Assembly: GCF_000147075.1 (NCBI RefSeq)
Contig: NC_014484.1
Span: 186,001-250,000 of the forward strand
DNA: 64,000 bases
DNA from: Spirochaeta thermophila DSM 6192
GTDB lineage: Bacteria > Spirochaetota > Spirochaetia > Winmispirales > Winmispiraceae
Direction: 5' to 3'
A program made the position numbers and the translations under genes. The notes under the pieces were generated by a model that was not told the DNA's origin, did not search any database, and saw nothing but the letters and a program-made list of their open reading frames with translations. Numbering within the stretch: the first letter of the stretch is position 1; the number at the start of each line of letters is the position of its first letter. Of this stretch, positions 1 to 43,692 are shown piece by piece.

Positions 1-445
1 CGATGGAACCGAGGCCGATCACCCCCAGCTTCTTGCCCTTGATCTCGGGCCCCGTGAACCGTGATTTCTCCTTCTCCACCAGCTCGGACACCCTGTCGCC
101 CTCATCCGCGATCGAGCGCACCCACTCCACGGCCCTGATGATCTTGCGGGAGGCGATGAGCAGGCCCGCGATCACGAGCTCCTTCACGCTGTTCGCATTG
201 GCGCCCGGTGTGTTGAAGACCACGATTCCCCGTTCGGTACACCTTTCCACAGGAATGTTGTTCACCCCAGCCCCTGCCCGTGCGATGGCGAGCACCGAAG
301 AGGGGATCTCCATCTGGTGCATGTCAGCACTCCGCACGAGGATGGCGTCCGGGTGGGTGAACTCGGAAGCCACCTCATAGAGGTCGCGCGGAAAGATCTC
401 GAGCCCCTTGGGAGAGATCTTGTTGAGCGTCTGGATCTTGAACAT
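1..445 (-). CDS. serA: D-3-phosphoglycerate dehydrogenase (N-terminal part, cut by window edge)
   Basis: The first 148 residues are visible; the rest lies left of the window. The enzyme oxidises 3-phosphoglycerate with NAD+ in the first step of serine synthesis. The N-terminal substrate-domain segment (IQTLNKISPKGLEIF, ILVRSADMH, RAGAGVNNIP, VVFNTPGANANSVKEL) is followed by the start of the Rossmann fold (KKLGVIGLGSI), typical of the D-2-hydroxyacid dehydrogenase family. Its ATG overlaps the serC stop by one base (TGATG), so the two are translationally coupled in a rex-serC-serA operon. Because the gene is truncated, I cannot see whether a C-terminal ACT domain is present. Confidence 0.93.
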   Translation of the reverse strand, partial: MFKIQTLNKISPKGLEIFPRDLYEVASEFTHPDAILVRSADMHQMEIPSSVLAIARAGAGVNNIPVERCTERGIVVFNTPGANANSVKELVIAGLLIASRKIIRAVEWVRSIADEGDRVSELVEKEKSRFTGPEIKGKKLGVIGLGSI

Positions 446-1536
446 CACCGCCTCCTTCCATACCGTCGTTCGAAGTCCTTCATGAAGGCCACCAGTGCCT
501 CCACTCCTTCTTTGGGCATGGCATTGTAGATGCTCGCCCTCAGTCCTCCCACGCTCCTGTGCCCTTTGAGGTTCACCAGCCCTCGCTCCTCGGCCTCCTC
601 GAGGAAGGTGGCGGTGAGCTCCTCGGTGGGGAGGAAGAAGGGGACGTTCATGAGCGAGCGGTAGGCAGGCTCCACCTTGGTGGTGAACAGATCGGACTCG
701 TCGAGGAAGCGGTAGAGGAGCTCCGCCTTCTCAAGGTTCCGCTCGTACATGGCCTGGACACCCCCCTGGCGTTCCACCCACTCGAGCACGAGACCCACCA
801 TGTAGATGGCGTAGCACGGCGGGGTGTTGTAGAGGGACCGCTTCTCCACGTGGATGTCGTACCGGAGCATGGTGGGTGTGTGCGGGAGGTGTCCGCCCAC
901 CAGGTCCTTCCGGATGATCACCACGGTCACCCCGGCCGGCCCCAGGTTCTTCTGCGCCCCTGCGTAGTAGATCCCGAAGGACCGGATGTCCACCGGCTCG
1001 GAGAGGATGTGGGATGAGGCGTCGGCCACGAGGGGCGCATCCCCTGTCGCCGGCAGCGAGGTGTAACGGGTGCCGTAGATCGTGTTGTTGGTGGTGATGT
1101 GGAGATAGGAGAGCCCTTCGGGAAGGGGCGGGATCTCGGGGATAGTGGTGTAGCCCCTGTCGGCCGAGGAGGCGACCACCTCTACCTCGCCGAACAGCCC
1201 CGCCTCCTTGATCGCGCGGCTCGACCAGTGTCCTGTGTCCACGTACCCCCCCTTCCCCGTGCGCCCCATGAGGTTCATGGGCACCATGGCGAACTGGAGC
1301 GAGGCGCCGCCCTGCAGGAAGAGGACCGCGTAGTCGTCCGGGATGTCCAAGAGCCTGCGGAGCCGCTCCTCGGTCCCGCCTATGATCCGCTCGAAGGCCT
1401 TTGAGCGGTGTGACATCTCCATCACCGACATCCCCGCGTCGCGGTAGACGAGCATCTCGTCGGCTGCCTTCTTGAGCACCTCCTCGGGAAGGACCGAGGG
1501 GCCCGCAGAGAAGTTGTACACGCGTTCGAGTCTCAT
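445..1536 (-). CDS. serC: Phosphoserine aminotransferase
   Basis: A 363-residue PLP enzyme that converts 3-phosphohydroxypyruvate plus glutamate to phosphoserine; normal length for the family. It starts MRLERVYNFSAGPS, the hallmark SerC N-terminus. It carries LFLQGGASLQFAMVPMNLM (phosphate and cofactor loop) and YYAGAQKNLGPAG, where the Lys should form the PLP Schiff base. The ATG at 1536 has AAAGGAG nearby and overlaps the Rex stop (ATGA); a longer frame continuing upstream only shadows rex. It sits between rex and serA and must depend on the rex promoter. Confidence 0.96.
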   Translation of the reverse strand: MRLERVYNFSAGPSVLPEEVLKKAADEMLVYRDAGMSVMEMSHRSKAFERIIGGTEERLRRLLDIPDDYAVLFLQGGASLQFAMVPMNLMGRTGKGGYVDTGHWSSRAIKEAGLFGEVEVVASSADRGYTTIPEIPPLPEGLSYLHITTNNTIYGTRYTSLPATGDAPLVADASSHILSEPVDIRSFGIYYAGAQKNLGPAGVTVVIIRKDLVGGHLPHTPTMLRYDIHVEKRSLYNTPPCYAIYMVGLVLEWVERQGGVQAMYERNLEKAELLYRFLDESDLFTTKVEPAYRSLMNVPFFLPTEELTATFLEEAEERGLVNLKGHRSVGGLRASIYNAMPKEGVEALVAFMKDFERRYGRRR

Positions 1537-2222
1537 CGGAGTGCTCCTTTCGTGGGATGGTCGCCCGCCATAAGGAGGGCGGAGAGCACGCGCATCTCTG
1601 CGCGCAGCGATATGGCACGCACCCATACCCCTTCCTCCCGGGGGATGGGCCGTGAGGTGAAATTGACGATCCCGCGTATCCCGCCCGCCCTGAGGCGCTC
1701 CACCGAGGTGTCCACCGACTCGGGAGGCACGGCGAGGATACCCACCTCTATCCCTTCGCGGCGCACCACCTCGGGGATGCGGAAGGCGGGATAGAGCGGG
1801 ATGGGGGTGGAGATGAGCTCGAGCCGGTTGGTGTTGCTGTCGAAGCCCGCGATAAGCTCGTACTCGGGAAGGGCCTGCTCGCTGTAGTGGAGGAGGGCGC
1901 TCCCGAGCCGGCCGAGGCCCACGATGCACGCCCTTCTGCGGGTCTGAAGACCAAAGGCCGTGGTGAGGAGGGAGAGGAGGGCCTCCACCGGATACCCGCG
2001 GGGACCCTCACCCAGGTTTCCCCCCGGCTGGGTGGCCTTGAGGAGTGTGCTTATGTCCTTGCGCACCAGGTGGGGAGGGTAGCCCAGCATACTGCCGAGG
2101 TCGCGCGAAGAGAGGTGTGTGGTTCCCCTCTCTCCCGCCTCTTCGAGAGCGCTGTAGAGGGATGCGAGCCGCTCGAGGGAGGGGAGGGGGATGTGGGGCG
2201 TCTTATCTGTGATTTTTTTCAC
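1533..2222 (-). CDS. rex: Redox-sensing transcriptional repressor Rex
   Basis: A 229-residue NADH/NAD+-sensing repressor. An N-terminal winged helix (SLERLASLYSALEEA, SSRDLGSMLGYPPHLVRKDI) is followed by a Rossmann domain with IVGLGRLGSALLHY and a FDSN segment that binds dinucleotide. The longest frame would begin at TTG 2258, but that TTG is the -35 box of the promoter. The GTG at 2222 lies one base from the predicted transcription start, and it is the only usable start codon until a Met some 40 codons in. I therefore call a leaderless GTG start. An 18-bp Rex-type palindrome covers the start, so autoregulation is likely, with serC and serA under the same control. Confidence 0.9.
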   Translation of the reverse strand: MKKITDKTPHIPLPSLERLASLYSALEEAGERGTTHLSSRDLGSMLGYPPHLVRKDISTLLKATQPGGNLGEGPRGYPVEALLSLLTTAFGLQTRRRACIVGLGRLGSALLHYSEQALPEYELIAGFDSNTNRLELISTPIPLYPAFRIPEVVRREGIEVGILAVPPESVDTSVERLRAGGIRGIVNFTSRPIPREEGVWVRAISLRAEMRVLSALLMAGDHPTKGALR

Positions 2223-2224
2223 AG
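2207..2224. promoter_or_regulatory. Rex-type operator overlapping the rex start
   Basis: The sequence CTGTGATTTTTTTCACAG is a perfect 6-bp inverted repeat (CTGTGA/TCACAG) separated by six T residues. The published Rex operator is TTGTGA-6-TCACAA, so only the outermost base pair differs. It covers the predicted +1 and the GTG start of rex itself, the expected place for autorepression. Binding is inferred, not shown. Confidence 0.72.
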
Positions 2225-2229
2225 AGAGG

Positions 2230-2258
2230 AGTGTAGCATGTGTCAGGACTTCTGTCAA
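2230..2258 (-). promoter_or_regulatory. Promoter of rex-serC-serA
   Basis: On the minus strand TTGACA (2258-2253), a 17-bp spacer and TACACT (2235-2230) form a near-consensus sigma-70 promoter. The predicted start of transcription is about 2223, one base before GTG 2222. Confidence 0.75.
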
Positions 2259-2529
2259 TGGATCGTGAGGGGCCTATGAAAATGTCATAGGGTTTTATGC
2301 GTTTTGCATGATCCTCGCACATCGAATGGGACCCTTGAAGCAGGATGTGCAAATCTGGTGTTAAATCAAACGAATAGAGATCCAGTTCCTTGAGAATGCT
2401 CTGAATAGGGGGGGTAAGATGGCACGCTTATTGAATTTATATGTTCAGGAAAACTACCGTGCGAGAGGAGTAGACATGCCTCGGTGTGAAGACCGAAGAA
2501 ATATATCGCTTTCCCGGAAGGAGGGGGTT
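2259..2529. other. Divergent intergenic region between rex and the giant lipoprotein
   Basis: About 270 bases (some 300 counting the rex promoter) lie between the two divergent genes. I see no RNA gene or convincing reading frame. For the plus-strand gene the best promoter guess is TTGAGA (2390-2395) and TAAGAT (2415-2420), but the 19-bp spacer is long. An ATG at 2419 is in frame with the lipoprotein, but it would bury the signal peptide about 37 residues in. Confidence 0.4.
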
Positions 2530-5500
2530 ATGAAACACATATCTTTTGTAGGTATTGTGCTTGGAGCGCTCGCCGTCCTTGTGGTGAGCCTCACAGGGTG
2601 TGACGTGGGACTCGGTGAGCAGGTGGACGTGGCCCGTCCCAGAGTGGCCCTCACCAGCCACGAGTCGGGCGAGTACGTGAAAGGGGTGGTCATCCTCTCC
2701 GGTACGGCTACAGACGATAGCGGCGTTTCCCAAGTGCAGATATCGTTTGATAGAGGGAAGACATTTGAGCCCGTCGATTCGTTGAAGAAGAAAGGCGACG
2801 GCTATGAATGGACGTATGTGTGGGATACACAGCAGATCCCCGATGGGCGCTACTATGTAGTACTTAAAGTATTCGACGAGGCTGGCCATTCCTACGAGAC
2901 CGAAGAGCTGGTATTCATCGTGGACAACCATGCTCCGGTCCTCCTCATCTCTTCCCCTGATAAGGCGGCTGATCCGGTTCAGAATCCTTTCAACCAGGAA
3001 GTGACGCTCAGTATCCATGCCGCCGACTATTCTCCTCTCGTGGCCTTCACAGTGGATGTGTGGAGGAGTTCTGATGGTACCTCATGGGAGCACCTTTCTG
3101 ATTATCCAAAGAACTTCTCTCAGACAGCCTCTCCTTTTACCTATACCTTTATTCCAGAGTATCCTTCGGGAGAGGCACAGCAGTATTTCCGGTTTGTATT
3201 CACTGCCGAGGACAAGGCAGGAAACACGAACACCTTTTTCTTCCACTCAGATGACGTATTCAGTGTGGCGGGGAAGCACCTCACAGTAGAGCAGGTGAAG
3301 ACGATCATAGAGGGTGGAACCGTCGAGGGAGTAACCAATGAGCAGTTGCTGCAGAAGGCGATCCAAACGTTTGTGGTGTACTTCGATGAGGATGGCGACA
3401 GGCCTCTTGTGAGGTTTCTTGAGACTGGATCAGAGCTCTATCAGTCAGGAAAGCTTACGATAGAGGTAGAAGATGATGATGCCATCGATCCGGCGTCACT
3501 CACACTTCGATGGTATAGCTCTACCGATCCTGATAATTTCCCTTCGACCGCAGACCTCACCCTCTCAGGATGGGACGTGATTTCCCAAGACCCACATGTG
3601 ACCGTCCTCAAGGAAACCCCTACCTTGTACCAATTTGCATATAGCCTTTCTGATTTTGAGGTAGACAGGTTTTACAAAGCAGAGATCGAAGTGCACGATG
3701 CAGGTGGTGTCTCTCCCTCTCAGACACCTACGAAAGTCTTTAAGGTGATCGCCTCTGACAGCCAGCCGCCTGAGATTACCCAAATCAGTATCGATGGACT
3801 TAGTAACATTCCAGACTCAGGGATGTACTACATTACGGAAGGTGACTATACCATCTCGTTTGCCGCGAGCGATAATGCAGAGCTCTCCTCAGTGTGGATA
3901 AAGGAGAACTCTCAAGAGATCTACAGCCAAACGGTGAACCAGAGCACCTTTAATGCGTCTCTGGACCTCACAGGGAAGCCTGATGGGACCTACACCTATG
4001 AAATAGGAGCACAGGATGCCAGTGGAATCGTCACCACGAAGGTATGCCAAGTCGTGGTGGATACCACCCCTCCTGCCCTCGAATTCACCACTGTTGCTCC
4101 TGTCTCCAATCCTGTGCCTGCCTTTAACGGGGTGGTAGAGCTGTCGGCCCTTATTTCGGATGGCATCGCTGTAGAATTCCTCTACTACTACATTGGACCA
4201 GATAACACACCCCCTGGTTACACAGTAGAACGAGATATCTTTGGAAGAGCTACTGGCGTGACAGGACTTCCTCCTGCGTGGACACCATATACCGACAACA
4301 AGAATGCCTGGAATCTCGAGTACGATACCACTCAGCTTTCAGATGGGACGAACTATGTAGGACTCTTAGCAGTCGATAGGAACGGGAATGTAGCTGTAGA
4401 CTTCTACACTATGAACGTAGACCAGAGTACCGATGAGCCGGTGATCACGATCTCAAGCCCCAGTGACGGTGGGTTTGCCGGCGCAGGACAGGTACTGAGC
4501 GGCACAGTGGCGGACGACGACAAGGTGGATGTGACGAGCATCCAGGTGCGGTACTCCACCGATGGAGGGACTACGTGGAGTTCATGGGTCTCGCCCGATT
4601 CGGTGACCGGTACTGGAAAAAATGTGAGCTTCACCTACATCCTTCCCGACCTCGGTGCCGATGGGTTGAAGCAGATCGAGGTGAGGGGGAGCGACGACCC
4701 TTCCGCCAAGCTTGGGAGCAACCCCACTGCAGTGACGGCCACTGAAGGACCTCTCAGCTTTACCTATGATACCACCAGCCCCGTGGTGAGTGTGAGCGAA
4801 CCTACGGAAGGCGACACATTTGACAGTACTTTTGTTGCCTCAGGTTCGGTGACAGAAGCGCACCTGCAGATCGTTCGGGTGAAGATGGATACCGACTCTT
4901 GGCAGGAGCTCACGCCCACAGGGAGTGCGCCTGACTACTCATGGACGTACGATCTAGGGGCGAGCTTTGATGGCCTTTCTGAGGGAGCTCACTCCTTCAC
5001 GGTAGAGGCGGTGGATGTGGTGGGTCAGACTTCCGCGGTCCAGGTCACGTTTTACAAGGATACCACAGGTCCGGCTGTCATCTTCACGAGCATCCAGGAG
5101 GGAGGGAATACTATCCTCACCTCCATGAACCCGGTAGTCGCAGGGAGCATCTCTGACGATTACTCGAACATCGCTTCTCAGATAGAGTACCGTATCGACG
5201 GAGCCGATCCTGATCCTTGGCAGCAGGCCGGTGTGACCGGGTCGGGTAAGACGGTCACCTTCAGCATCGATGTGAGCAGCCTCTCCGATGGTCAGCACGA
5301 TATCGATATAAGGGCAACTGATGTCCTCGGTAACCAGACCGAGGTATTGGATGTACAGTTCAGGATAGATCGTGCCGCTCCCTCCCTCTCCATTACAGCT
5401 CCTCCAGAGGGAACGGTCTACGGCACGGTGAGCTCTGGTGAGGTCTTCACCCTCACCGGCACGGCCTCCGACGCCCTCCTCGATGCCGTGAGCGCCGATC

Positions 5501-8500
5501 TCGAGGGCACACCTCTGAGCAACGGTGGTTCCTCCACGGTCTGGTCGTTCGATGTCGACAAGACCCTCTTTGATGCTCTCTCGGAAGGTCCTCACACCAT
5601 CCAGGTGACGGCCACGGATCTCGCCGGGAGGAGTACGCTCCTCACTTGGCAGTTCGTGAAAGACGCTCAGGCGCCTGTCATCTCGTTCAGCAACATCAAC
5701 GAGGATGGGAGCACGGTGCTTCAGGACGCCTCGCCTGTGATAAACGGTGCTGTCTCTGACACGTATGGGGTGGGCTCCATCGAGACGAGGATAGAACGGT
5801 ACGACTACTCCGCCTCGTCCTGGAGTCTCGTGGAGGACTGGACGAGTGCAGGTGATCCGGCCGGGGCCACGGTGTATGTGTGGAGCAAGGACCTCGGCCC
5901 CTCCGGGCTTAACCTTGGTGCAGGGCGGTATCGCATCTCGGTGAGGGCCACCGACATGGCCCAGAATACCGCGAACCAGGCCGAAAAGTCCGATATAGAG
6001 TTCGCTATAGACCAGCAGGCTCCTCAGCTCAGCATAGATGCGCTTGACATGTATCAGAACGGCGACTTCCTCCTCACGGGGACGGCTTCCGACGATGGGG
6101 CCGTGGCGAGTGTGAAGATAAAAGTGGACGATACCGACTTCTCCACCGGTGCTGTGGATGCCACCTATGACAACGGCACGGGTACGTGGCAGGTTACGGT
6201 CCCCACTACCGGCCTCTCCTCCGGGGATCACACCGTGTACGTGCAGGTGGAGGACAGTGCAGGCAAGACAGTGATGCTCAACAAGCCCTTTGTGTTCGAC
6301 AGCGATCCGCCTGCGGTCACCATTCTTGAGCCTGCCTCTCAGACCAGGGTGAACGGCGAGGTGACGATACGGGGCACGGCCTCGGACAACGTGGCGGTCT
6401 CCACGGTGGAGTACCGATTCGGCAAGAACGCCACCACCTGGCAGACGAGCGGGCTCTCGGGGCTCTACAGCTGGAGCTACACCTTCGCTCAGATCGAGTC
6501 CTATGCCAATGATACCTATGCTACAGAGATCGATCCTGCCACAGGGAATCCCCAGAGCGGTACCAATGTGTGGGCCCTCCCCTTCCAGGTGAGGGTCACC
6601 GACGTGGCGGGGAATGCCTATGAGGAGCTCTCCTACGAGCTCTGGATCGATCCTGACATGGACACCCCTCTGGTCTACATCACGAGCCACAGCAACAACC
6701 AGACCGTGGGCGGCACGGTGCGGCTTGCAGGGTATGCTACCGACGACGACTGGGTCTACGATGTGGAGTATCGTGTGGATCCCACGGGCACGGGCTCTGG
6801 CTTTGGCTCATGGACCAGTGCGAACAGGATAGGGGCGGGCACCCAGGTGAACTGGTATGTGAACCTCAATGAGGACGGGTCCCTCAATCCTCCTCCGGGC
6901 GAGATAAACGAGGTCCTGGTAGAGGTGAGGGCTGTAGACAGCAAAGACAACGGGCTTAGTCGCGGTATAGAAGGAGATGTGGCGAGCATTCGCCTCAGAT
7001 TCGACAGCAACGTGCCGGTGATTGAGGATGTGGAGGTGCTCAAGGCCGATAGCACGAGGGTGCCGTACACCGCAGGCGAGCGTGTGGCGGGGACCTTCAC
7101 CGTGGAGGCGGTGATGAGGGACGAGGGCGGTCTCTCCAAGATCGAGTGGAGGGGTGAGGGGACTACGCTCTTCACCGATGTGCTCTCGGATCCCACGGTG
7201 GTGACCACCCCGCCCGAGGTGGGCGCCTCCGAGATACGGGCCGGGGTGAAGTACCTCATCACCTCGGTGGGTACCACTGATTTCACGGCCATAGGGGCGA
7301 GCTCCAACGAGGTGGGGATCACCTTCACCGCCACAGGATCTGGAACCGGTACCGGCACGGCCTACATGGCCGTCACCCCGCCCCTCGTGCCTGCAACCGA
7401 GCTGGTGGCCGGTGAAGCCTACGCCATCTTCGATCCCGGCACCACCGACTGGACCGCAGCGGGTGCGCCCGACAACAGCATAGGCACACCGTTCGTTGCA
7501 ACCGGTGCGGGTACAGGCGACGGCATCGCCTTCCGGATTGTGGCAGCTACGGAGCTCGCGGTAGGCGAGATCTACCGGATCTATGAGCCCGGTGCCACCG
7601 ACTGGACGGCAGTAGGGGCACCCGACAACAACGCAGGCACCACCTTTACGGCCACAGGTGCTGGTAGTGGTGATGGCTTTGCCATAGAGCCGGAGAAGCT
7701 TAGCTTCGTGTATCGCTTCCACCTCCAGCTTGACTCTACCACCCTCAATAGCGGGGCCTACGACGCTACGAGCGGGTTCTACCAGCTCGACCTCAGGGTG
7801 ACCGACAACGCCTCGCCCACGCCCTACATGAGCCAGCAGAGCCTCAACCTCCAGATCGACAACTACTATCCTGCGGGTGAGTACCTGGCCTCTCCCAATG
7901 CTGCCACCGCCGAGTACTACATCCAGGGGAGGGCCTGGGACAGCGGTACCGGGTCGGGACCCATCCAAGGGATTGGGGCAGTGGTCCTCTACTTCGAACG
8001 AGACGGCTCCTTCATCGACCTCGCAGGGGGGGCTGGTTCCTGGACAACCCGCTACGTGAAGGATGAGTCCGCAGGAGGGACGTACCAGGACGTGACCTTC
8101 CCGGCCGATACGGCGAGCGGTATCTGGGTGGATACGAACGAGATCGGTGTGGACATAGACGGTGACGGCTACGTGGAAGGATTCTCCACGGATGGCATCT
8201 ACAAGAACTGGTATGCGATCTACGATACCACGGTGCTCGCTGATGGGCCTGTCACCCTCCACTACGTGGTCATCGATGGGGCAGGCAACGCCACGCACTA
8301 CACCCAGGACCTCTACATCCAGAACAACATCCCGCAGATAGACGGTGTAGTGATAGGGACCGACCTCGACAACAGTGGCACCATCGATCCCAGCGAGACC
8401 AAGCTCTACAACACCAACTACGAGACCACCGGGTTCACGGTGCGCAACAACTACCTCCAGTTCCAGATCAACGCCTCCTCCGGTAACGGGCAGCTCCACT

Positions 8501-11037
8501 ACCGCGTGGGCTACGTCACCGGGACGACGAGCGTGCCGGCCTCGAGCCTCGTGAGGGGTGGTGTGTACACCATAGAGACCGTAGGGGATACCGACTGGAC
8601 CAAGCTCGGGGCCCCTGCGAACCAGGCGGGTATCACCTTTGTGGCTACAGGTCCGGGCACAGGCTCAGGTACGGCCATCTCCTACACCACCACCGAGCTC
8701 AACGCCACCCTCACCAGCAACGTGGTGGACGTCACTGACTTCACGAGCATCCCGGACTCGAGCGCTCCCAACGACCGGCAGTTCATCATCAAGGTGTACG
8801 ACTCTACCGTACCGGCAGGTGGAGAGGACGAGCAGCTCGCAAGCGCCGTGCTCGTAGGCCTCACGGTGGACAACACCGATGAAGCGGCCCCGGAGATCGC
8901 GGTGGCAGATATGGGTCAGACCTACACCATCGCCGAGGCCTATGCCGACAGGGTGCTCCAGGCTGTGGACGCCTACGAAGACAACATCGTCACCTCGGCC
9001 GACGGTACGCGCCACGGCTACGTGCAGTACGCCGCTGCGAGCAGCGATACCGATGCGGATGTGAGCGGTAAGGTGATCTTCATGGGCAAGGCCTACGACA
9101 ACCAGAACATGAACCGCATCCGGGTCCAGATCACAGGATATGATGGCGGAAACGGTGTGGGACAACCCTTTGACATCGCAGTAGCCTCCGGTGGCACCCT
9201 CGTCTCGGCCAACGGTGCGACCATTGCCGACGTGGAAGCGGGGACCGCTGCCTGGGCCTTTGAGATTGCCCCGGGGAGCGAGTCCCTCACCGTGGACAAC
9301 GGACACGTGATCAACTGGAGGTTCGCATGGAACACCGCGACCGTGCAGAACGTGGCACAGGATGACGTGACGCTCACCTTCAACGTAGAGGATAGCGCGG
9401 GGAATACAGGCACGGCTGTGAGCTACACGGTGGATGTACGACCCTACATCACCGATGTGCAGCGCGATCCCGCCAACTTCAACACCTATCGATCAAGGTA
9501 CGGGTGGTACTCCCTGCGGAGAGGCGAGACCGTGGTGGTGAGAGGATTCAACCTCTACAACTCCACTGCCGATACCGTGAGCTTTGGCGGTGCGAGCGTG
9601 AACCTCCCCTCGAGTGCCACCACCACCTCCTTCTCGGTGACCGTGCCCACGAGCGCCGTCTCCGGTGCCATCACCCTTACGGTGAACGGGCTTGAGGCCC
9701 TCAACAACATCAACGACAACACCGAGCCCTACAACCAGGAGTACGATCCTGCGGACCCGCGCTCGGCCCTTTGGACCGACGACCGCTATGCTCACATCTG
9801 GCAGTCCAACGATACCACGGGGACTTTCGATAGTGGTTACTTCCCGGAGAGCGATACCCCGGTGCATCCTGCCATGACCATAGATCCTTCAACAGGAACT
9901 CTGTATGCAAGTTGGTCTCACTATGCCTCTTGCCGGGTCTACCGAGCGGCGATAGATGATGGAGCGCGAACCACCGTATTCCGTATCTACGACCCTTCTG
10001 AGCACACCGACATCGACTACGGTGTACGACCGGTCATCGCCTACAATGCGAACTACTATGACGGCGCCTCTACCTACGGTGGACTCTACGTCTGGGATCC
10101 TCAGGCTCCGTATCAGTTCACTTCTGGAGGAGTAAATGATTACTTCTATGAAGGAGAGAACATGGGGCACGACCACTACCTCATGCAGTTCATCAATGAG
10201 CGAGTGGTGACGGTTGGGGATAACATCCACGTCAGCTACTACGATACGGAGACCAAGGCCCTCAAGTACATGTACATCCAGAGCGGCGACACAAGCACCG
10301 CAGAGCACTCCTGGGTCAATCTCGACGGAGGATCCGATGGTGATGATACCCAAGTGGTCTCCACCGGTCGGGTCTCTGCTGCAGGTGAGTTCAGCGCCAT
10401 CGACGTGACGCCGGCAGGGTATCCGGTGATCGCCTACTACGACATATCCCGCCAGACCGTGCGGATCGCCAGGGCCACGAGCACCACGCCCACCACTGCG
10501 GCCGACTGGGTGCTCCAGGACGTCATCGGCACCTCCGATCCCAACTACCGCTATTCCGGGAAGTACATCTCCATGCGGATCGACAGTCAGGGCTATGTGC
10601 ACCTCGCCTTCTTCAGGGTGAGCACAGGCGACCTCATCTACATGAAGTCCACCAACAACCCGCAGGACGGGACCACGGCCTACACCTTCGGTCCTACCGT
10701 GGTGGTCGACAGCGAGGGCTCGGTGGGGATCTGGGCCGACATCTCCCTCACGGACGACGACAGGCCGGTGATCACCTACCTCGACTTCTCCCTGGTGAAC
10801 ACCTTCGATGGGCTCAAGATGGCCTTCTACGATCCTGCACTCGAACGAGAGAGCGGGGATGTGGCAGGTGAGCCGGATACCTCTGACGGGTGGGAGACCA
10901 TGTACGCAGCCCTCGGGTACGACATCGACAACAAGCGGCTGAGCATGGAGTACGACACGAACGACCACAACGCCTGGTGGGCTGCGATAGGGTATGCCTC
11001 GAGTGACTACTACCGGGTGGCCTACTACGTAAAGTAA
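2530..11037 (+). CDS. Giant Ig-like repeat lipoprotein with TIG and propeller-like C-terminus
   Basis: A 2835-residue predicted surface lipoprotein. ATG 2530 follows AAGGAGGGGG, and the signal peptide ends in the lipobox SLTGC (Cys about 24). Residues about 35-1560 are repeated bacterial Ig-like units ending in phrases such as DTTPPALEF or DTTSPVVSV, with GTASDD and DGTYTYEI motifs between. Three 43-residue TTDWTAxGAP repeats follow (about 1572-1718) and a fourth lies near 2008-2051. A TIG-like domain (ETVVVRGFNLYN) is at about 2307-2388. The last 420 residues alternate strand-like segments (PVIAYYDIS, IDSQGYVHLAFFR) resembling BNR/sialidase-type propeller repeats. The N-terminus (CDVGLGEQVDVARP) resembles the lipoproteins at 33393 and 37925. 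Adhesion or a structural surface role is inferred; no catalytic motif was seen. Confidence 0.88.
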   Translation: MKHISFVGIVLGALAVLVVSLTGCDVGLGEQVDVARPRVALTSHESGEYVKGVVILSGTATDDSGVSQVQISFDRGKTFEPVDSLKKKGDGYEWTYVWDTQQIPDGRYYVVLKVFDEAGHSYETEELVFIVDNHAPVLLISSPDKAADPVQNPFNQEVTLSIHAADYSPLVAFTVDVWRSSDGTSWEHLSDYPKNFSQTASPFTYTFIPEYPSGEAQQYFRFVFTAEDKAGNTNTFFFHSDDVFSVAGKHLTVEQVKTIIEGGTVEGVTNEQLLQKAIQTFVVYFDEDGDRPLVRFLETGSELYQSGKLTIEVEDDDAIDPASLTLRWYSSTDPDNFPSTADLTLSGWDVISQDPHVTVLKETPTLYQFAYSLSDFEVDRFYKAEIEVHDAGGVSPSQTPTKVFKVIASDSQPPEITQISIDGLSNIPDSGMYYITEGDYTISFAASDNAELSSVWIKENSQEIYSQTVNQSTFNASLDLTGKPDGTYTYEIGAQDASGIVTTKVCQVVVDTTPPALEFTTVAPVSNPVPAFNGVVELSALISDGIAVEFLYYYIGPDNTPPGYTVERDIFGRATGVTGLPPAWTPYTDNKNAWNLEYDTTQLSDGTNYVGLLAVDRNGNVAVDFYTMNVDQSTDEPVITISSPSDGGFAGAGQVLSGTVADDDKVDVTSIQVRYSTDGGTTWSSWVSPDSVTGTGKNVSFTYILPDLGADGLKQIEVRGSDDPSAKLGSNPTAVTATEGPLSFTYDTTSPVVSVSEPTEGDTFDSTFVASGSVTEAHLQIVRVKMDTDSWQELTPTGSAPDYSWTYDLGASFDGLSEGAHSFTVEAVDVVGQTSAVQVTFYKDTTGPAVIFTSIQEGGNTILTSMNPVVAGSISDDYSNIASQIEYRIDGADPDPWQQAGVTGSGKTVTFSIDVSSLSDGQHDIDIRATDVLGNQTEVLDVQFRIDRAAPSLSITAPPEGTVYGTVSSGEVFTLTGTASDALLDAVSADLEGTPLSNGGSSTVWSFDVDKTLFDALSEGPHTIQVTATDLAGRSTLLTWQFVKDAQAPVISFSNINEDGSTVLQDASPVINGAVSDTYGVGSIETRIERYDYSASSWSLVEDWTSAGDPAGATVYVWSKDLGPSGLNLGAGRYRISVRATDMAQNTANQAEKSDIEFAIDQQAPQLSIDALDMYQNGDFLLTGTASDDGAVASVKIKVDDTDFSTGAVDATYDNGTGTWQVTVPTTGLSSGDHTVYVQVEDSAGKTVMLNKPFVFDSDPPAVTILEPASQTRVNGEVTIRGTASDNVAVSTVEYRFGKNATTWQTSGLSGLYSWSYTFAQIESYANDTYATEIDPATGNPQSGTNVWALPFQVRVTDVAGNAYEELSYELWIDPDMDTPLVYITSHSNNQTVGGTVRLAGYATDDDWVYDVEYRVDPTGTGSGFGSWTSANRIGAGTQVNWYVNLNEDGSLNPPPGEINEVLVEVRAVDSKDNGLSRGIEGDVASIRLRFDSNVPVIEDVEVLKADSTRVPYTAGERVAGTFTVEAVMRDEGGLSKIEWRGEGTTLFTDVLSDPTVVTTPPEVGASEIRAGVKYLITSVGTTDFTAIGASSNEVGITFTATGSGTGTGTAYMAVTPPLVPATELVAGEAYAIFDPGTTDWTAAGAPDNSIGTPFVATGAGTGDGIAFRIVAATELAVGEIYRIYEPGATDWTAVGAPDNNAGTTFTATGAGSGDGFAIEPEKLSFVYRFHLQLDSTTLNSGAYDATSGFYQLDLRVTDNASPTPYMSQQSLNLQIDNYYPAGEYLASPNAATAEYYIQGRAWDSGTGSGPIQGIGAVVLYFERDGSFIDLAGGAGSWTTRYVKDESAGGTYQDVTFPADTASGIWVDTNEIGVDIDGDGYVEGFSTDGIYKNWYAIYDTTVLADGPVTLHYVVIDGAGNATHYTQDLYIQNNIPQIDGVVIGTDLDNSGTIDPSETKLYNTNYETTGFTVRNNYLQFQINASSGNGQLHYRVGYVTGTTSVPASSLVRGGVYTIETVGDTDWTKLGAPANQAGITFVATGPGTGSGTAISYTTTELNATLTSNVVDVTDFTSIPDSSAPNDRQFIIKVYDSTVPAGGEDEQLASAVLVGLTVDNTDEAAPEIAVADMGQTYTIAEAYADRVLQAVDAYEDNIVTSADGTRHGYVQYAAASSDTDADVSGKVIFMGKAYDNQNMNRIRVQITGYDGGNGVGQPFDIAVASGGTLVSANGATIADVEAGTAAWAFEIAPGSESLTVDNGHVINWRFAWNTATVQNVAQDDVTLTFNVEDSAGNTGTAVSYTVDVRPYITDVQRDPANFNTYRSRYGWYSLRRGETVVVRGFNLYNSTADTVSFGGASVNLPSSATTTSFSVTVPTSAVSGAITLTVNGLEALNNINDNTEPYNQEYDPADPRSALWTDDRYAHIWQSNDTTGTFDSGYFPESDTPVHPAMTIDPSTGTLYASWSHYASCRVYRAAIDDGARTTVFRIYDPSEHTDIDYGVRPVIAYNANYYDGASTYGGLYVWDPQAPYQFTSGGVNDYFYEGENMGHDHYLMQFINERVVTVGDNIHVSYYDTETKALKYMYIQSGDTSTAEHSWVNLDGGSDGDDTQVVSTGRVSAAGEFSAIDVTPAGYPVIAYYDISRQTVRIARATSTTPTTAADWVLQDVIGTSDPNYRYSGKYISMRIDSQGYVHLAFFRVSTGDLIYMKSTNNPQDGTTAYTFGPTVVVDSEGSVGIWADISLTDDDRPVITYLDFSLVNTFDGLKMAFYDPALERESGDVAGEPDTSDGWETMYAALGYDIDNKRLSMEYDTNDHNAWWAAIGYASSDYYRVAYYVK
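7243..7683 (+). repeat. Three tandem 43-residue TTDxTAxGA coding repeats
   Basis: The copies lie near 7243-7368, 7404-7530 and 7558-7683. Each follows the pattern Y-x-I, then G-x-TDW/FTA-x-GAP/S, then G-x-x-F-x-ATG-x-G-x-GDG. They interrupt an Ig-like unit of the giant lipoprotein. Protein similarity between copies is high while the nucleotides differ, so they are not very recent duplicates. Confidence 0.8.
8551..8683 (+). repeat. Fourth, isolated copy of the TTDxTAxGA coding repeat
   Basis: It encodes GGVYTIETVGDTDWTKLGAP, then QAGITFVATGPGTGSGTA, the same module as the array at 7243-7683 but about 900 bases downstream. It is again inserted in the middle of a strand-rich domain. Confidence 0.75.
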
Positions 11038-11122: not shown

Positions 11123-12121
11123 CTAGTGTAGTCCCTCCACCACCAGCCGGGTGGCCGCATCCCAGGCCGCCTTCGCTCGCCACGCGAGCGGGTTGGGCGC
11201 CTCCGCCCCCCTAAGAGCCGGCACGAGCCCCGTCCGCCGCGCGAGCCCCTCCTGCACCCGCCCCTCCCGCACCCATGCGAGCCCCGCCTCCACCGCCCTC
11301 CTGTTCCTCACCCCCACCGGCACCGCGCACAGCACCCTCACCGGCAGGTCGTACTCCGCCGCCTCTGACGGATCGGGGAACCGGTCGGCCTCCAGCAGCC
11401 CCACCTTCCCCGGCCCCAGCCTCACCGCCTCCGAGAGCGGCCCGTACACCCACAGCCCCTCCCCTTCGAAGAACCGCGCCCACACATCCTCCCACACCGC
11501 CGTCTCCGACCCCCTCGCCCACACCCCCTCATCCAGCCACACCCTCACCCCCTCCTCCGCCCCCACGCCGAACCGCGCCGCCTGCACCCCTGCCCCCCAC
11601 CGCCCCCGCGGCGTCCCCCCCGCCACCAGCACCCGGCCCCGGCCAGAGGCAAGCTCCCCGCGCGTCAGCCGCTCCTGCCGCACCCGCCTGAAGACCATCC
11701 ACACATCCACCACCAGCGGCACGCTCCCCTCCGGCACTTTCCCCTCCCCCAGCAGACGCCCCCACCCTTCGGGGAACAGGCGGCTTGTCCCCTCGAGGTC
11801 GAATCCGTGCGCCTCTCCCTCCGGGATCTCCCATGCGATGAGGATCCCCGGCGCCCTGCACGCCTCGTAGCTTCCCGGGAACCGCTCCACCCTCCTCCAC
11901 GGCGCCCCCTCCTCTTCCTCGAGGAAGCCTTGCCACAGCTCCTCGGTCTCCGGGGTCACGTACCACCGTGGGGCATAGTAGCCCCCGTACCACCACATCC
12001 CCAGGACCACCAGCACCACGACCAGCCCTCCCGCCACCCCCAGCCACCACGGTACTCCTCTTCTCGTGTGAGAATCCTTACCCCGTGGACCCTTTCTCCT
12101 CCGCGAACCCCGCTTGTTCAT
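11123..12121 (-). CDS. Membrane-anchored protein resembling family-1 solute-binding proteins
   Basis: A 332-residue protein. A basic cytoplasmic tail (residues 1-22) is followed by one membrane segment (about 25-45, WWLGVAGGLVVVLVVLGMWW) and a soluble extracytoplasmic domain. Phrases typical of extracellular solute-binding proteins appear in order: VPLVVDVWMVFRR, a W-rich centre (VWEDVWARFFEGEG) and a C-terminal VQEGLARRTGLVPAL. No permease or ATPase genes are adjacent, so a transport role is unproven. The ATG at 12121 follows AAGGAGG. The coding strand is strikingly G-rich, which makes several opposite-strand frames appear open. It could equally be an orphan sensor or binding protein. Confidence 0.7.
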   Translation of the reverse strand: MNKRGSRRRKGPRGKDSHTRRGVPWWLGVAGGLVVVLVVLGMWWYGGYYAPRWYVTPETEELWQGFLEEEEGAPWRRVERFPGSYEACRAPGILIAWEIPEGEAHGFDLEGTSRLFPEGWGRLLGEGKVPEGSVPLVVDVWMVFRRVRQERLTRGELASGRGRVLVAGGTPRGRWGAGVQAARFGVGAEEGVRVWLDEGVWARGSETAVWEDVWARFFEGEGLWVYGPLSEAVRLGPGKVGLLEADRFPDPSEAAEYDLPVRVLCAVPVGVRNRRAVEAGLAWVREGRVQEGLARRTGLVPALRGAEAPNPLAWRAKAAWDAATRLVVEGLH

Positions 12122-12248: not shown

Positions 12249-15200
12249 CTAGAACATCACCACATGCGTCCCGAAGGTGAGCTTGGGCACGATCTTCGGA
12301 TCCACGTCCGAGGGGATGAACCAGAGCTCCGGCTCCACGTAGAGGCTGTAGGTGTGGAAGGCCGGGAAGCGCTTCACCTCCACGATCGGGAACTCCAGCT
12401 GGGCGAGGATGGCGCTCAAGACCACGGAGGAGATCGTCCTGGTCTCCTGGGCCTCCTCCACCTCGATGGGATCGTAGAGGAGGATATAGCTGAAGTCCGC
12501 GCCAAGGGCGAGCTTCAACGAGAGCCAGTCCCAGTCGGGCCCCAGGAACGACTCGAACGGCACGTAGAGGAGGCTCGCGAGGAGCTTGCCGCTTATGAAC
12601 TGACCCGAGAGGCGCGCAGGCTTGCCGTCGGCGGTGGTCCGCGGGCCAAGCCCATAGCTCACCTGGAGCTTCACATTGTTGTCGAAGAAGGTGAGGCCGA
12701 GGCCCGCCTTCCAGTAGGTCATGCCGAGGAAGTGTGCATCGAGGTACATACCCTGGATGAACTCGGGTATCTCGTACCCGGCCTTATCACCGGCTCTGAG
12801 GCTTATCTGCACGTCCTCGAGCCCGAAGTTGTCGTCCGCGACACCAAACGCCACGAGCTTCTCGTTGACCCTGTCACCCTCGAGCGGGGCTATCACCTTC
12901 ACCTCGGGCGGGATCTTATCCACCACGAAGAGGGTGCGCAGGACAGCAGTCTCGCCGTTTCGGAAGGAGGCCTGCACCAGGACAGGGAGCGGACCATTGG
13001 GGAGGAAGCCCGTCTCCACCCGGTACTTCCACTGCGATCTCGCCGGGATCTCTTGGAAGGTCCGCCCGTTGTCGAGACTCACCTGTATGCGCACCACTTC
13101 GAACTCCCGTATCTTTTTCCTGTAGTCCGGATCTTCGGGATCGAGCGTGGTGAGGTAGGCGGCGGTCCCCCTGATCCAGGGCCTGTTGGCGAGCATATCG
13201 CCTATCATGTGGCTCTCGAGGGTGAGGTAGGGTCCTATCTTCTGGTAGATGAAGCTCCGCGGCTCGCTCTCCACCCGTGCCCCATCGTGGGAGAGCACGG
13301 CCTTCAGGGTGACCTCGCCGTCGGGGAGCTTGCCGGGATCGAGCACTGCCCTGAAGTATCCGCGGGGGTTCACGTCGGCCGAGGTGAGGAATCCGTCCTC
13401 GAGGAAGATCTGCACCTTCTCCACCGGCGAGGGAGCCGTCGCCACACCTTCGACCACCACGGGGCCGTGGACCACCTCACCCTCGGAGGGGAAGAGGATG
13501 CGGACCGAGGCGCCCTCGGTCCGTGCCACCACGAACAGGTTCCTGTCCACGAGGGCCACGTTGCCTGCCCCATCCCGGGCCTCGAGCCTCAGGTTGTACC
13601 ATCCGGGCGAGAGCTCACCCAACGGTATGCGGGTGGTGAGCACCCTCTCGAGCGGGAGCGTCACCTCCACCGGGTCCAGCTGGTTGTTGATGGGCTCGAG
13701 GATCCCCTTGAAGGAGGTGAGCTGTATGTTGTCGGAGACGCGGCCTGAGAGCCGGACCTCTCCTGAGACGGTGACCCCTTCTTCCGGGGTGGTGAGGGTG
13801 ATCTCGGGAGGCGTATTGTCCACGTTCACCAGCGCGGAGTAGGAGGCCTCTATCCCGTAGCCGTCGCGCACCACGAACTGCACCGCGTATGTACCGTCCG
13901 TGAGGATGGTGGTATCGAGCGGATAGGTCCACTCCGTGCCGTCTATGGTGAGGTGCGCGAAGTGGAAGGAGTTTCCGTTGTCGAAGGAGACCCGTACCGA
14001 GTCGATTCCGTTCGCATCGCTCGCCGTTCCCTTGAGGATCACCGTTCCCTTTACGGTCTCCTCGACCGTGGGTGAGACCATGGCCCCCTCCGGCTCGCTG
14101 AGACTCACCCTGAGGGTCTTCGAGGCGATCTCCCCCTGCAGCCCGAAGAGATCCACGGCGTAGATCTCCACGGTGTGTTCATTGTCGGAGAGGGAGGAGA
14201 GGGGAATGGTGAAGGAGAAGGTGTGCTGCGCAGGCACCTCCTGCCAGGTGCCGTCGTCGAGCTTCCACACGATCTTGGAGATGCCGTCGTCGTCGAAGGC
14301 CATGCCCGCAATCGTCACGTCCTTGGTGACCACGAAGTCGTCGGGCGGTGTCTGGATCTCCACGCGGGGTTTGTCGAGCGAAAGGTCCACGGAGGGTGAG
14401 AGGAGGGTCTCGGAGGTGTTGCCTGCCGCATCTTCCGCAATCAGCTTCATGGTCTTCCCCTCCTCGGCGAGGCGGGAGAAATCGACCGTGAACGAGAAGA
14501 TCCCGTCTTCCGGAGAGAGGGGGGTGAAGGAGGGTTCCGGGGTACTGGCGGCTGCTTCCTCGGACTCCCCTGGTGAGCCAGAGGGTTCAGGAGGGCCCTG
14601 TTCCAGCAGGTAGCCGAAACGGATCACCGGGGCCTCGGAGGCGATGGATCCTGCCACCAGGATGGTGCCGTTCACCGTCTTCCCCACCTCTGGGGTGGTG
14701 AAGGCGAGGGTAGGCGGGGTGGCATCGTAGAAGAGATGGATGCGTTGATACCTCACATGGCCTGCGCCGTCCTCTGCCTTGAGTTCCAGGAGGTGTGGGC
14801 CGGGGGTGAGCTGGGACACGGCCATCGTGGTGGAGAAGCGGAGCTCTGAGACGGATATGCTCACCCAGGGGGCGCCGTCGAGCCTGTAGGCGAGCCCTGG
14901 GAGGCCGGCGTCGTCCTGCACCTCCCCCTCGATGGTGAGCGACGTGTTGAGGTACGCGCCATCTGAGGGGGTCTGAAGCGTGAGCACAGGGGCCTCGAGA
15001 TCGATCTCGGCGGTGAAGCGAGATGAGCGGTAGGTGCGGCCGTCGGTCGAGGTCACCACCACCTGCACCCCCGAGGCCTTCCCCGCCTTCTGGGGCGTGA
15101 TGATGAGGTGGTTGCCCTCGTGTCTCACGGTGAGAAGGTCGCCGGCCCCTTCGAGGACCACCTCTCGCACCCCTTCCCCGGAGAAGAAGCCTATGAGTGG

Positions 15201-17114
15201 GGTGCGATCCGTCCAGATCATGGTCCCGTTGGAGAGGCGGTGGTCGAGGAGGAACACCTCATCGGGCTTGGTGGGCGGGGGGAGGGTCTCGCCTTCCTTC
15301 TTCGGCGGAGGTGCCTGGTAGGAGATCACCTGGGGAAAGAGATACCTCTTCCCGTCGCGCATGGTGAGCGCAAAGACCGCGGCGAGGGCCCCGTGGCCTG
15401 CCTTGGGATCGAGGGAGGCCTCGAAGACATAGCCGCCTTCTTCGGCAGGACTGATCTTGAGACTCGTCTTTCTCACCGTGTTCGGGAACTGCGGGAGGTT
15501 CTCGGGATCGAGAGGCATGAGTGCCCAGAGGTCCTCCCCTCCCACGTAGAGCACACCGGAAGAGGGCTTCTCCTGGCTCACAATCCTTCCCCGGAGCACG
15601 GCCTTGCGCGAGGCTTCGTAGGTGAGGCCGTTCTTCCACGTGAGGGATTCCCCGGTGTCGGTATAGACCAGCTCCTCGACCGTGAGGACCGGCGCGGTGG
15701 GGGCGATCTGGAACGAGACCTTCACCGGAGGGCTCTCCAGGCCATAGACGTCCACCCCTATGAGGGTGAGGGTGTGTCGGCCCGGAGGAAGTCCCTCGAG
15801 GGGCACGTAGAACCCCATGGAGGCGGGGATCTCCACTCCCTGTTTGGGATCGTCTCCCATGCCGAGCACCTTTACCTTCTCAGGCGGGTTGGGTCCCACG
15901 ATACGGCCCACGAGCACCTCATCCGGGGTGAGCACCGGTTCTCCCTCTTCCAGGGCGGGGAAGAGGAGTTCTACCTGAGGTTGGAAGGCCTTTCTGTCGT
16001 TTTTGAGCCTGATCTTCTGGGAGGAGCGATTGCCGCTCGCATCCTCGGCGTGCACGGTGAGTTCGAGGGTTCCGTCCTTTTCCTGCGAGGTGTCGAAGGT
16101 GAGGTGCCAGTACGGATTGCCTGGTATGAGCTCAAGGTCGTGCTCTTCGCCCTTGAAGGTGTACCAGAGCCGTTTCACCCCTATGGCATCCCTCACCGTG
16201 CCGGTGATGCCCACCTTCCCGAAGACTACGGCCTCGTCTTCAGGGCTGAGCACGTTGAGGGCCGCAGGTTCGTTGTCCACAAAGAGGAGGAAGGGGCTGC
16301 GGACCTCTGTGCCGGTGCCGTCGGTGGCGGTGAACCACCACACATAGGGACCGTCGGGGAAGGATCTAGTATCGACGGGGAGGGAGAATCGATAGACTCC
16401 TTCACCCTTGTCGTACTTAACACCAAGGGTAAGGGTCTTCTCCGGGATCTGTTCCTCCTCTCCCTTTTTGTTTACCGTGGTATAGGTGGGTATGGTCACG
16501 CTGAGGCCTCTTACGCCATTTTCATCCCTCACCACCCCCTCGAGCACGATCTTTCCCGACACAAGGACCCCGCTCTGATGAGAGGTCACCTCGATCACTG
16601 GTGGGGTGGTGTCGAGTGCGAAGGTGGAGGTGATCTCCGGTCCCTCGGTGCCGTTCACGTCGACCGCCTTCACCGAGATGGTGTGGGTTCCCTCGGTGAG
16701 TCGGGAGGCGGGTACTGCGACCCGCCAGTACTCGGTTCCCTCGGCCGTCTGGTAGGAGCCGTCGTCGAGCTTCACGAGGACCCGTGCCACGCCGTCGTCG
16801 TCGACCGCCACGCCCACGATGTTGAAGGCATTACGCACCACCTCGTGCTCCTGTGGGGAGACGATACGGACGACCGGGAGATCGGAGGCAGGATCCACCT
16901 TGATGTTGAACGGTCCGGCGATGGACTCGTTTCCTGCAAAATCGATGGCCTTTATGATCACGTTGTGGGTACCGGGTTTTTCGTCCTGGATGTTGAACTC
17001 TTTTTTCCAGTCCTCTTCCCCCTCTGCTTCCTGCCACTCAGTGGTACCACCGGCATACAGCCAGGTGGAGATGAGGAGAAAGAGGAAGAACATCGTGAGG
17101 CTGCGGAGCTTCAT
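12249..17114 (-). CDS. Secreted Ig-like repeat array with putative C-terminal outer-membrane barrel
   Basis: A 1621-residue exported protein. ATG 17114 follows AAGGAGG. The N-terminus MKLRSLTMFFLFLLISTWLY, then AGGT, is a signal peptide without a lipobox Cys. Residues about 50-1440 are tandem Ig-like units (PVVRIVSP, VVRNAFNIVGVAVDDDGV, DTTPPVIEVTS, SGKIVLEGVVRDENGV and many variants). The last unit breaks off after DNFGLEDVQISLRAG. The final ~175 residues then change to alternating amphipathic strands rich in aromatics (TYWKAGLGLTFFDNNVKLQV, LKLALGADFSYILLY, SLYVEPELWFIP) and end THVVMF. A terminal Phe after strand-like sequence is the usual outer-membrane insertion signal. I infer an outer-membrane-anchored Ig stalk; whether the barrel exports the array is unknown. 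Confidence 0.82.
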   Translation of the reverse strand: MKLRSLTMFFLFLLISTWLYAGGTTEWQEAEGEEDWKKEFNIQDEKPGTHNVIIKAIDFAGNESIAGPFNIKVDPASDLPVVRIVSPQEHEVVRNAFNIVGVAVDDDGVARVLVKLDDGSYQTAEGTEYWRVAVPASRLTEGTHTISVKAVDVNGTEGPEITSTFALDTTPPVIEVTSHQSGVLVSGKIVLEGVVRDENGVRGLSVTIPTYTTVNKKGEEEQIPEKTLTLGVKYDKGEGVYRFSLPVDTRSFPDGPYVWWFTATDGTGTEVRSPFLLFVDNEPAALNVLSPEDEAVVFGKVGITGTVRDAIGVKRLWYTFKGEEHDLELIPGNPYWHLTFDTSQEKDGTLELTVHAEDASGNRSSQKIRLKNDRKAFQPQVELLFPALEEGEPVLTPDEVLVGRIVGPNPPEKVKVLGMGDDPKQGVEIPASMGFYVPLEGLPPGRHTLTLIGVDVYGLESPPVKVSFQIAPTAPVLTVEELVYTDTGESLTWKNGLTYEASRKAVLRGRIVSQEKPSSGVLYVGGEDLWALMPLDPENLPQFPNTVRKTSLKISPAEEGGYVFEASLDPKAGHGALAAVFALTMRDGKRYLFPQVISYQAPPPKKEGETLPPPTKPDEVFLLDHRLSNGTMIWTDRTPLIGFFSGEGVREVVLEGAGDLLTVRHEGNHLIITPQKAGKASGVQVVVTSTDGRTYRSSRFTAEIDLEAPVLTLQTPSDGAYLNTSLTIEGEVQDDAGLPGLAYRLDGAPWVSISVSELRFSTTMAVSQLTPGPHLLELKAEDGAGHVRYQRIHLFYDATPPTLAFTTPEVGKTVNGTILVAGSIASEAPVIRFGYLLEQGPPEPSGSPGESEEAAASTPEPSFTPLSPEDGIFSFTVDFSRLAEEGKTMKLIAEDAAGNTSETLLSPSVDLSLDKPRVEIQTPPDDFVVTKDVTIAGMAFDDDGISKIVWKLDDGTWQEVPAQHTFSFTIPLSSLSDNEHTVEIYAVDLFGLQGEIASKTLRVSLSEPEGAMVSPTVEETVKGTVILKGTASDANGIDSVRVSFDNGNSFHFAHLTIDGTEWTYPLDTTILTDGTYAVQFVVRDGYGIEASYSALVNVDNTPPEITLTTPEEGVTVSGEVRLSGRVSDNIQLTSFKGILEPINNQLDPVEVTLPLERVLTTRIPLGELSPGWYNLRLEARDGAGNVALVDRNLFVVARTEGASVRILFPSEGEVVHGPVVVEGVATAPSPVEKVQIFLEDGFLTSADVNPRGYFRAVLDPGKLPDGEVTLKAVLSHDGARVESEPRSFIYQKIGPYLTLESHMIGDMLANRPWIRGTAAYLTTLDPEDPDYRKKIREFEVVRIQVSLDNGRTFQEIPARSQWKYRVETGFLPNGPLPVLVQASFRNGETAVLRTLFVVDKIPPEVKVIAPLEGDRVNEKLVAFGVADDNFGLEDVQISLRAGDKAGYEIPEFIQGMYLDAHFLGMTYWKAGLGLTFFDNNVKLQVSYGLGPRTTADGKPARLSGQFISGKLLASLLYVPFESFLGPDWDWLSLKLALGADFSYILLYDPIEVEEAQETRTISSVVLSAILAQLEFPIVEVKRFPAFHTYSLYVEPELWFIPSDVDPKIVPKLTFGTHVVMF

Positions 17115-33296: not shown

Positions 33297-33392
33297 GTGC
33301 ATGGCAACAGGTTGATTGACTGTATAAGTGAAGCGAGGTGAGCGATCCTCCTGTTATCCAGAAAGAGAGGGCATAGGGAGGGAGGTGTGTCT

Positions 33393-42855: not shown

Positions 42856-42885
42856 ATAGTATCCATATCGAAGGGGTTGTGTCAA
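42856..42885 (-). promoter_or_regulatory. Promoter of the two tRNA-Arg genes
   Basis: TTGACA (42885-42880), 18 bp, TACTAT (42861-42856) on the minus strand, with +1 near 42849, seven bases before the tRNA. It overlaps the 3' end of the CBM48-type gene. Confidence 0.82.
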
Positions 42886-43604
42886 TCTTGCAGCCGGGCC
42901 GAGATGCGGGGCGGTACCTCCACGAGCGACACCGGGATCGCGTCCAGATACACCCGACGCGGGTTCTCGGGATCGGCGATGCGCTTCCCGTCGGCCAGGA
43001 AGTAGTAGGCATAGGTCCCTGCAGGGAGGGAGAGGGTCTTCCGGTAGAGTCCGGGCTCCACCTCTTCCATGGGGAGGAGGAAGGGGTCCCAGTTGCAGAA
43101 CTCGCCCACCAGGAAGACCTGTCTACCCGGTGTGTACCTGAAGAGGAATGCGACCTCCCCTTCCAACGGGACCGGCCCTGCCTCCTCCGCAGGAAGGGGC
43201 GTCAGGGATACGAGTGAGAGGCGCACGCCGTCTTCGTCCTCCACGACCAGGGGGTTGGAAGGGTCCGCCATCCACACGCCGTCGACCACGAGACGGTAGG
43301 TGAATCGGTCCTCCGGTGGATCGAGTACATAGAAGAAGATGCGGGAGGGATTGCGGGCCATGAGGTGGACGGTTCGGAAACGTTCGAAGGAAAAGGCGAT
43401 GCCCACGCTCCTCGTCCGCGGGCTCCCCTGGAAGGTGAAGACGAGGCGGTTCTTCTTCGTGTGTGGAGGCCTCGCCTCCTTGAGATCGAGGAGGTAGAGG
43501 TGGAGGTCCTTGTCCTCGACGATGAATCCGAGGTCCTGGGAGGAGAGGGAAAGACCGAAGCAGAGGAGCCACACACCCGCAAGGACGAATTTGCTTTTTT
43601 CCAT
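42882..43604 (-). CDS. Exported protein with CBM48/isoamylase-N-like domains
   Basis: A 240-residue exported protein. Signal peptide MEKSKFVLAGVWLLCFGLSL, then SSQD. The C-terminal part (about 150-225) is a glycogen-binding E-set: EVAFLFRYTPGRQVFLVGEF, then CNWDPFLLPM and YAYYFLADGKRIADPENPR. The preceding part (about 75-135, FSFERFRTVHLMARNPSRIF, TYRLVVDGVWMADPSNP) looks like a second, diverged copy of the same fold. There is no amylase catalytic domain. ATG 43604 is chosen because the frame upstream of it is only a shadow of the divergent gene. It may recognise a carbohydrate or, as in AMPK-beta relatives, act as a structural module. Confidence 0.82.
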   Translation of the reverse strand: MEKSKFVLAGVWLLCFGLSLSSQDLGFIVEDKDLHLYLLDLKEARPPHTKKNRLVFTFQGSPRTRSVGIAFSFERFRTVHLMARNPSRIFFYVLDPPEDRFTYRLVVDGVWMADPSNPLVVEDEDGVRLSLVSLTPLPAEEAGPVPLEGEVAFLFRYTPGRQVFLVGEFCNWDPFLLPMEEVEPGLYRKTLSLPAGTYAYYFLADGKRIADPENPRRVYLDAIPVSLVEVPPRISARLQD

Positions 43605-43692
43605 CTTTCTGCTACAGTATTCGGAAGATGGGCCGGCGAAGTAAAGGGTTTTATCCCAGGCCCATAACGGCCGACTCATATACAGAGGGACG

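Follow-up and report, generated by a model that had tools for sequence, protein, structure and literature searches.

The locus analyzed here raises the question of how a very long array of Ig-like domains is held in the spirochaete envelope when the array breaks off in the middle of a domain and gives way to an aromatic-rich C-terminal tail. The gene lies in a 64,000 nucleotide stretch of the Spirochaeta thermophila DSM 6192 genome (NC_014484.1, positions 186,001 to 250,000; hereafter the window), which is a single contig of 2,472,645 bases. The focal open reading frame begins with an ATG preceded by a strong Shine-Dalgarno sequence (AAGGAGG) and by an in-frame stop four codons upstream, and the start was therefore considered secure. 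By curated Pfam cut-offs the product is a bacterial Ig-like (Big_7) repeat protein: Big_7 matched seven stretches at 3.8e-57 (191 bits against a cut-off of 24.1) and Big_13 matched at 5e-25 (88 bits against a cut-off of 27). At least 11 Ig units were detected, and no unit was assigned to residues 472-708, which include a Pro-rich linker. The last complete Ig domain is membrane-proximal and was highly conserved in an alignment of relatives. The layout of the gene and its neighbors is given in Table 1.

Table 1. Coordinates of the focal gene, its parts and its neighbors in the window
Feature	Position	Strand	Residues	Description	Basis
Partner gene	2419..11037	+		Ig-array lipoprotein of ~2.9 kaa, lipobox LTGC	Big_7 1e-44
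332-aa protein	11123..12121	-		Membrane-anchored, probable divergent solute-binding-protein relative; downstream of focal gene, same strand
Focal gene	12249..17114	-	1621 aa	Ig-array protein with predicted C-terminal outer membrane barrel
Signal peptide	17052..17114	-	1-21	MKLRSLTMFFLFLLISTWLYA; putative cleavage site	Read from sequence
N-terminal half-Ig	16893..17051	-	~22-74	Second half of an Ig unit, profile ~34-89	Internal-repeat HMM and covariation
Ig array	13281..16877	-	80-1278	Ten detected units	Pfam Big_7/Big_13 and internal-repeat HMM
Last complete Ig domain	12921..13235	-	1294-1398	pLDDT mostly 90-98	AlphaFold2
C-terminal half-Ig	12786..12911	-	1402-1443	First half of an Ig unit, profile 1-42	HMM
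Outer membrane beta-barrel	12252..12764	-	~1451-1621	Predicted eight strands, terminal Phe	AlphaFold2, fold match, conservation

To assess the nature of the tail, its structure was predicted with AlphaFold2 using an alignment of 79 relatives recovered from a scan of genome contigs. The model had a mean pLDDT of 90 (about 90-98 over most of the tail) and contained eight tail strands, the first at model positions 162-170 and the last at 314-326. A model made without the alignment was uninformative (pLDDT 31) and was set aside. The top fold match of the tail was NspA (1p4t; VIA-align Z 14.2, rmsd 3.3, 144 aligned residues), along with OprF (4rlc; Z 14.2) and the OmpA barrel (Z 12.9). Searches with the tail sequence returned no match in Pfam at E up to 10, outer membrane protein families included, nothing in NCBIfam and no meaningful match among PDB sequences. 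A soluble or known periplasmic fold was rejected, as no sequence match pointed to one and the fold matches were membrane barrels. On the strength of the model, the tail is predicted to be an eight-stranded outer membrane barrel of the OmpA/NspA fold. The preliminary description had read the Ig array as turning into a C-terminal outer membrane barrel of 8-10 strands that ends in Phe and had suggested structure prediction of the tail; the prediction bore this reading out, with a barrel of eight strands and no soluble fold.

The tail was then used to survey related genomes. A profile search, also suggested in the preliminary description, found the family in 67 of 296 sampled spirochaete genomes. 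With a single tail sequence as query, 66 of the 296 genomes sampled from the phylum gave a match, and a search across the class recovered the tail in 139 of 395. Nearly all carrying genomes had one copy, tail identity across the class was 35-82% and the homologues were 1305-2443 aa long. Homologous reading frames ended exactly at the tail match in 115 of 133 cases and in Phe in 124 of 133, and a terminal Phe was present in 151 of 164 unique full-length reading frames. All recovered homologues have the barrel at their C-terminus, among them a short one that lacks Ig units. This 262-aa coiled-coil and barrel protein (locus L052, 4444-5229, minus strand) sits beside a giant Ig protein (3-4451, minus strand) whose C-terminal part resembles the partner in the window, and the pair indicates that barrel and Ig modules also exist as separate genes. 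At loci L054 and L109 the barrel gene was found in two tandem copies. A literature search, with many subscription journals outside its coverage, returned no description of such an architecture or barrel family; the barrel sequence family, the order of modules and the presence of complementary half-domains at either end (see below) appear to be undescribed, in line with the earlier suggestion of an undescribed class in spirochaetes, where the family is widespread.

The barrel family was absent from a 1.1 Mb genome (G049) of the same family as the Treponema-like genomes and from the small Borrelia-like genomes (f4). It was present in two larger genomes of the G049 genus (G275 and G287), and its absence from these small genomes is a probable loss during genome reduction. 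FlaA was present in every barrel-carrying genome and the barrel was found in none of 19 FlaA-less genomes. A link between barrel and flagella was set aside as weak, since ancestry was uncorrected and FlaA-bearing groups, the Borrelia-like genomes among them, also lack the barrel.

To examine how the array ends, an Ig profile of 91 positions was trained without the two ends of the protein, on internal units alone. In the window protein the last unit halts at profile position 42, at ...VQISLRAG, and the first unit covers positions 34-89. The earlier remark that the array stops mid-domain was thus correct for the C-terminal break and incomplete, as the missing half sits at the N-terminus of the same protein. 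In the set of 164 unique full-length relatives, profile positions 40-43 are the typical start of the first unit and also the typical end of the last. The split was clean in 148 of the 164; the remaining 16 mostly look like artifacts of parsing, for instance at L054, where the barrel start was misplaced. The half-Ig follows a hydrophobic N-terminus in most homologues; in distant relatives (L036-L043) a predicted coiled coil lies between the signal peptide and the N-terminal half, and the split is retained even there. When the C-terminal half was joined to the N-terminal half, a single full-length Ig match was obtained in 76 of 81 proteins, with a median of 56.4 bits against 62.0 for internal units. 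The C-terminal half alone was modeled with low confidence (AlphaFold2 pLDDT about 51-73) beside a confident complete domain, which fits a missing partner. By profile phase, the two terminal halves together correspond to one predicted Ig domain.

Phase agreement alone is weak proof, because two break points placed at random would fall within 5 of 91 positions of each other in about 12% of cases and the complementarity counts as one ancestral event. Circularly permuted unit boundaries, by which the ends would hold whole domains, were rejected because AlphaFold2 placed a confident domain in canonical register right before the half-domain. The largest non-Ig gap lay mostly at 0.3-0.6 of the array, with eight detected units following it in 106 of 148 proteins. 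A conserved mid-array hinge was not used as fold-back evidence, as this gap may merely hold divergent Ig units.

Contact between the halves was assessed by covariation. Mean-field direct coupling analysis of 1286 internal units was used to learn contact pairs between the two halves of a unit, and these pairs were then tested on the terminal halves across 148 proteins. Coupling between the terminal C-half and N-half at the learned pairs gave an AUC of 0.725 for the top 20 pairs and 0.688 for the top 40. Positive controls from the same unit gave 0.69-0.91 (top 20), and mismatched pairings drawn from the same proteins, which preserves phylogeny, averaged 0.575 (top 20) and 0.538 (top 40). None of 72 mismatched pairings reached the terminal values on the main score. 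The covariation stayed when the ten most distant loci were dropped, with 0 to 2 of 72 mismatched pairings reaching the terminal value. Permuting partners inside tight clusters gave p of about 0.03-0.07, suggesting that part of the covariation lies between clades. The two strongest terminal pairs were also the two strongest internal pairs, and each depends on very few changed sequences. We take the covariation as good but not decisive evidence that the halves touch.

Covariation fits contact within a chain and contact between chains alike. In the latter case the N-terminal half-Ig of each molecule would complete the half next to the barrel in its neighbor, and the product would be a domain-swapped dimer or a head-to-tail chain along the outer membrane, similar to strand-complemented pilus subunits. 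The split domain and the covariation suit such a homotypic contact equally well, and some genomes carry two copies, in tandem at the two loci named above. However, most genomes carry a single copy, and with its own barrel on every subunit a free fiber is unlikely. We consider closure between molecules somewhat unlikely on balance. Closure within one chain is slightly favored, by analogy with the 'velcro' closure of N- to C-terminus in beta-propellers; a rigid linear array might, however, be unable to bend back.

A more doubtful alternative is that the halves never meet and the protein is an open linear stalk. The N-terminal half would then pack on the next Ig unit, the C-terminal half would serve as an adapter on the barrel, and the phases would match because tandem repeats were fused at a single point. 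The frequency of chance phase agreement, the loose positioning of the half-Ig by AlphaFold2 and the between-clade share of the covariation are compatible with this reading. However, an Ig half on its own would not be expected to fold, and still both halves retain Ig signatures throughout the class and outside it. In addition, the terminal pair covaried above every one of the mismatched pairings on the main score. We regard an open stalk as unlikely.

The placement of the array was judged from the barrel. Loops of variable length lie on the side of the model opposite the N-terminus, as seen from the model and from conservation. With the N-terminal side in the periplasm, the conserved turns (FFDDN and GPDW) would be on the inner side and the variable loops on the outer, the same arrangement as in ordinary outer membrane barrels. 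Because an even number of strands brings both barrel ends to the periplasmic side, the simplest placement of the Ig array is there, with no surface stalk, and even strand number and loop variability together suggest that it is probably periplasmic. The secondary structure of the model showed no helix through the barrel. An eight-stranded barrel of NspA/OmpA size has no passenger pore, making self-export unlikely. The preliminary description had offered a surface anchor or a self-exporting protein: a predicted outer membrane anchor was retained from this, the surface placement of the array was not, and self-export was judged unlikely from the strand number and the lack of a passenger pore. A surface adhesin or autotransporter, with the Ig array exported or displayed by the barrel as in type V secretion, is highly improbable: the kinds of module are shared with intimin and invasin and Ig arrays are common in adhesins, but type V translocators have 12 or more strands against the predicted eight with no helix inside, and the variable loops lie opposite the N-terminal side.

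Neighboring genes were examined for candidate partners. The focal protein and the partner encoded beside it are the only Big_7 proteins in the host genome. The partner contains a C-terminal IPT/TIG-like segment (TIG just under its cut-off) and a C-terminal region that appeared beta-propeller-like when judged by eye. Among 120 barrel-gene loci with enough flanking sequence, a giant Ig-rich gene lay no more than 1.6 kb away in 69. In 64 of these the two genes share a strand, and they often overlap or are separated by a few bases; 48 of the 69 neighbors were recognizable relatives of the partner in the window. A profile of the 332-aa family matched 22 further reading frames at barrel-gene loci, and the family recurred at 21 of these loci; some of the matches on the opposite strand were weak (3e-34 at L058 and 4e-5 at L093). 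The window copy had no match in Pfam and two relatives matched SBP_bac_1; judging from these two, the 332-aa protein is probably a degenerate solute-binding protein. The window also contains a second tandem pair of Ig lipoproteins, encoded by giant plus-strand reading frames of 1507 and 1562 aa (33387-37910 and 37925-42613) that lie 14 bases apart and have N-terminal lipobox-like signals and Big_13 matches. Elsewhere in the window, reading frames for a TPR protein (43693-46587, plus strand) and an AMPK1_CBM glycogen-binding-module protein (42882-44792, minus strand) overlap on opposite strands.

Together these data suggest the following architecture. The signal peptide would direct the protein to the periplasm, the C-terminal 171 residues would insert into the outer membrane as a barrel of NspA/OmpA size, and the Ig array would remain periplasmic with both barrel ends on that side. 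The mature N-terminus would then supply the missing half of the Ig domain seated on the barrel, and that domain would be complete once both halves meet, as phase, conservation and covariation support. Within one molecule this would close an array of 12-20 units as a loop, or as a hairpin folded back on itself, with the barrel as its tether; between molecules it would join barrels into dimers or chains. We think it reasonably likely that the protein is an outer membrane-anchored, probably periplasmic Ig chain whose two ends together make up one Ig domain, in either of these two ways. From its anatomy and gene linkage it would likely serve to scaffold or tether the envelope, together with the adjoining giant Ig lipoprotein and sometimes with the membrane-anchored binding-protein relative. 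Against partnership with the giant Ig neighbor, none was detected in 51 of the 120 testable loci. The most specific version is put forward tentatively: in flagellated spirochaetes, a loop of roughly 12-20 Ig domains, with the split domain as its closure, would hang from the barrel, pair with the giant Ig lipoprotein and act in the periplasm as a scaffold between the outer membrane and the cell body.

The modules and the barrel fold were known already. If the proposed architecture is correct, a very long repeat protein is closed or linked without covalent chemistry, and spirochaetes have a scaffold from outer membrane to periplasm that is unnamed in the family databases used. Ig-rich spirochaete proteins may then be periplasmic rather than surface adhesins.

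Compared with known systems, the tail resembles NspA, OmpA and OprF in its predicted eight strands, similar size, C-terminal Phe and fold, with no sequence relation found in Pfam or NCBIfam. The soluble part of the focal protein is N-terminal and consists of Ig units rather than a C-terminal peptidoglycan-binding OmpA domain. Classical (type Va) autotransporters require a 12-stranded barrel with a central helix, and membership was rejected for a tail with eight predicted strands, no helix and no Pfam match. Intimin and invasin (type Ve) also combine a barrel and an Ig array in one chain; there a 12-stranded N-terminal barrel is followed by the Ig passenger, whereas the predicted eight-stranded barrel of this family is C-terminal in all recovered homologues, the opposite order as noted earlier, which rules out membership among inverse autotransporters, and its array is probably periplasmic with split terminal Ig halves. 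The leptospiral proteins OmpL47 and LigA/LigB are likewise spirochaete Ig arrays, and we know of no C-terminal barrel of the focal family in them. The NCBIfam OmpL47-type repeat matched the N-terminal half of the focal protein at 66.4 bits, far under the equivalog cut-off of 250, and identity with OmpL47 was rejected. In beta-propeller 'velcro' closure and in chaperone-usher donor-strand complementation a repeat or domain is likewise completed by a segment that comes from the opposite chain terminus or a second subunit; here the completing piece would be half an Ig domain rather than one strand, and it would join the ends of an array of 1300-2400 residues.
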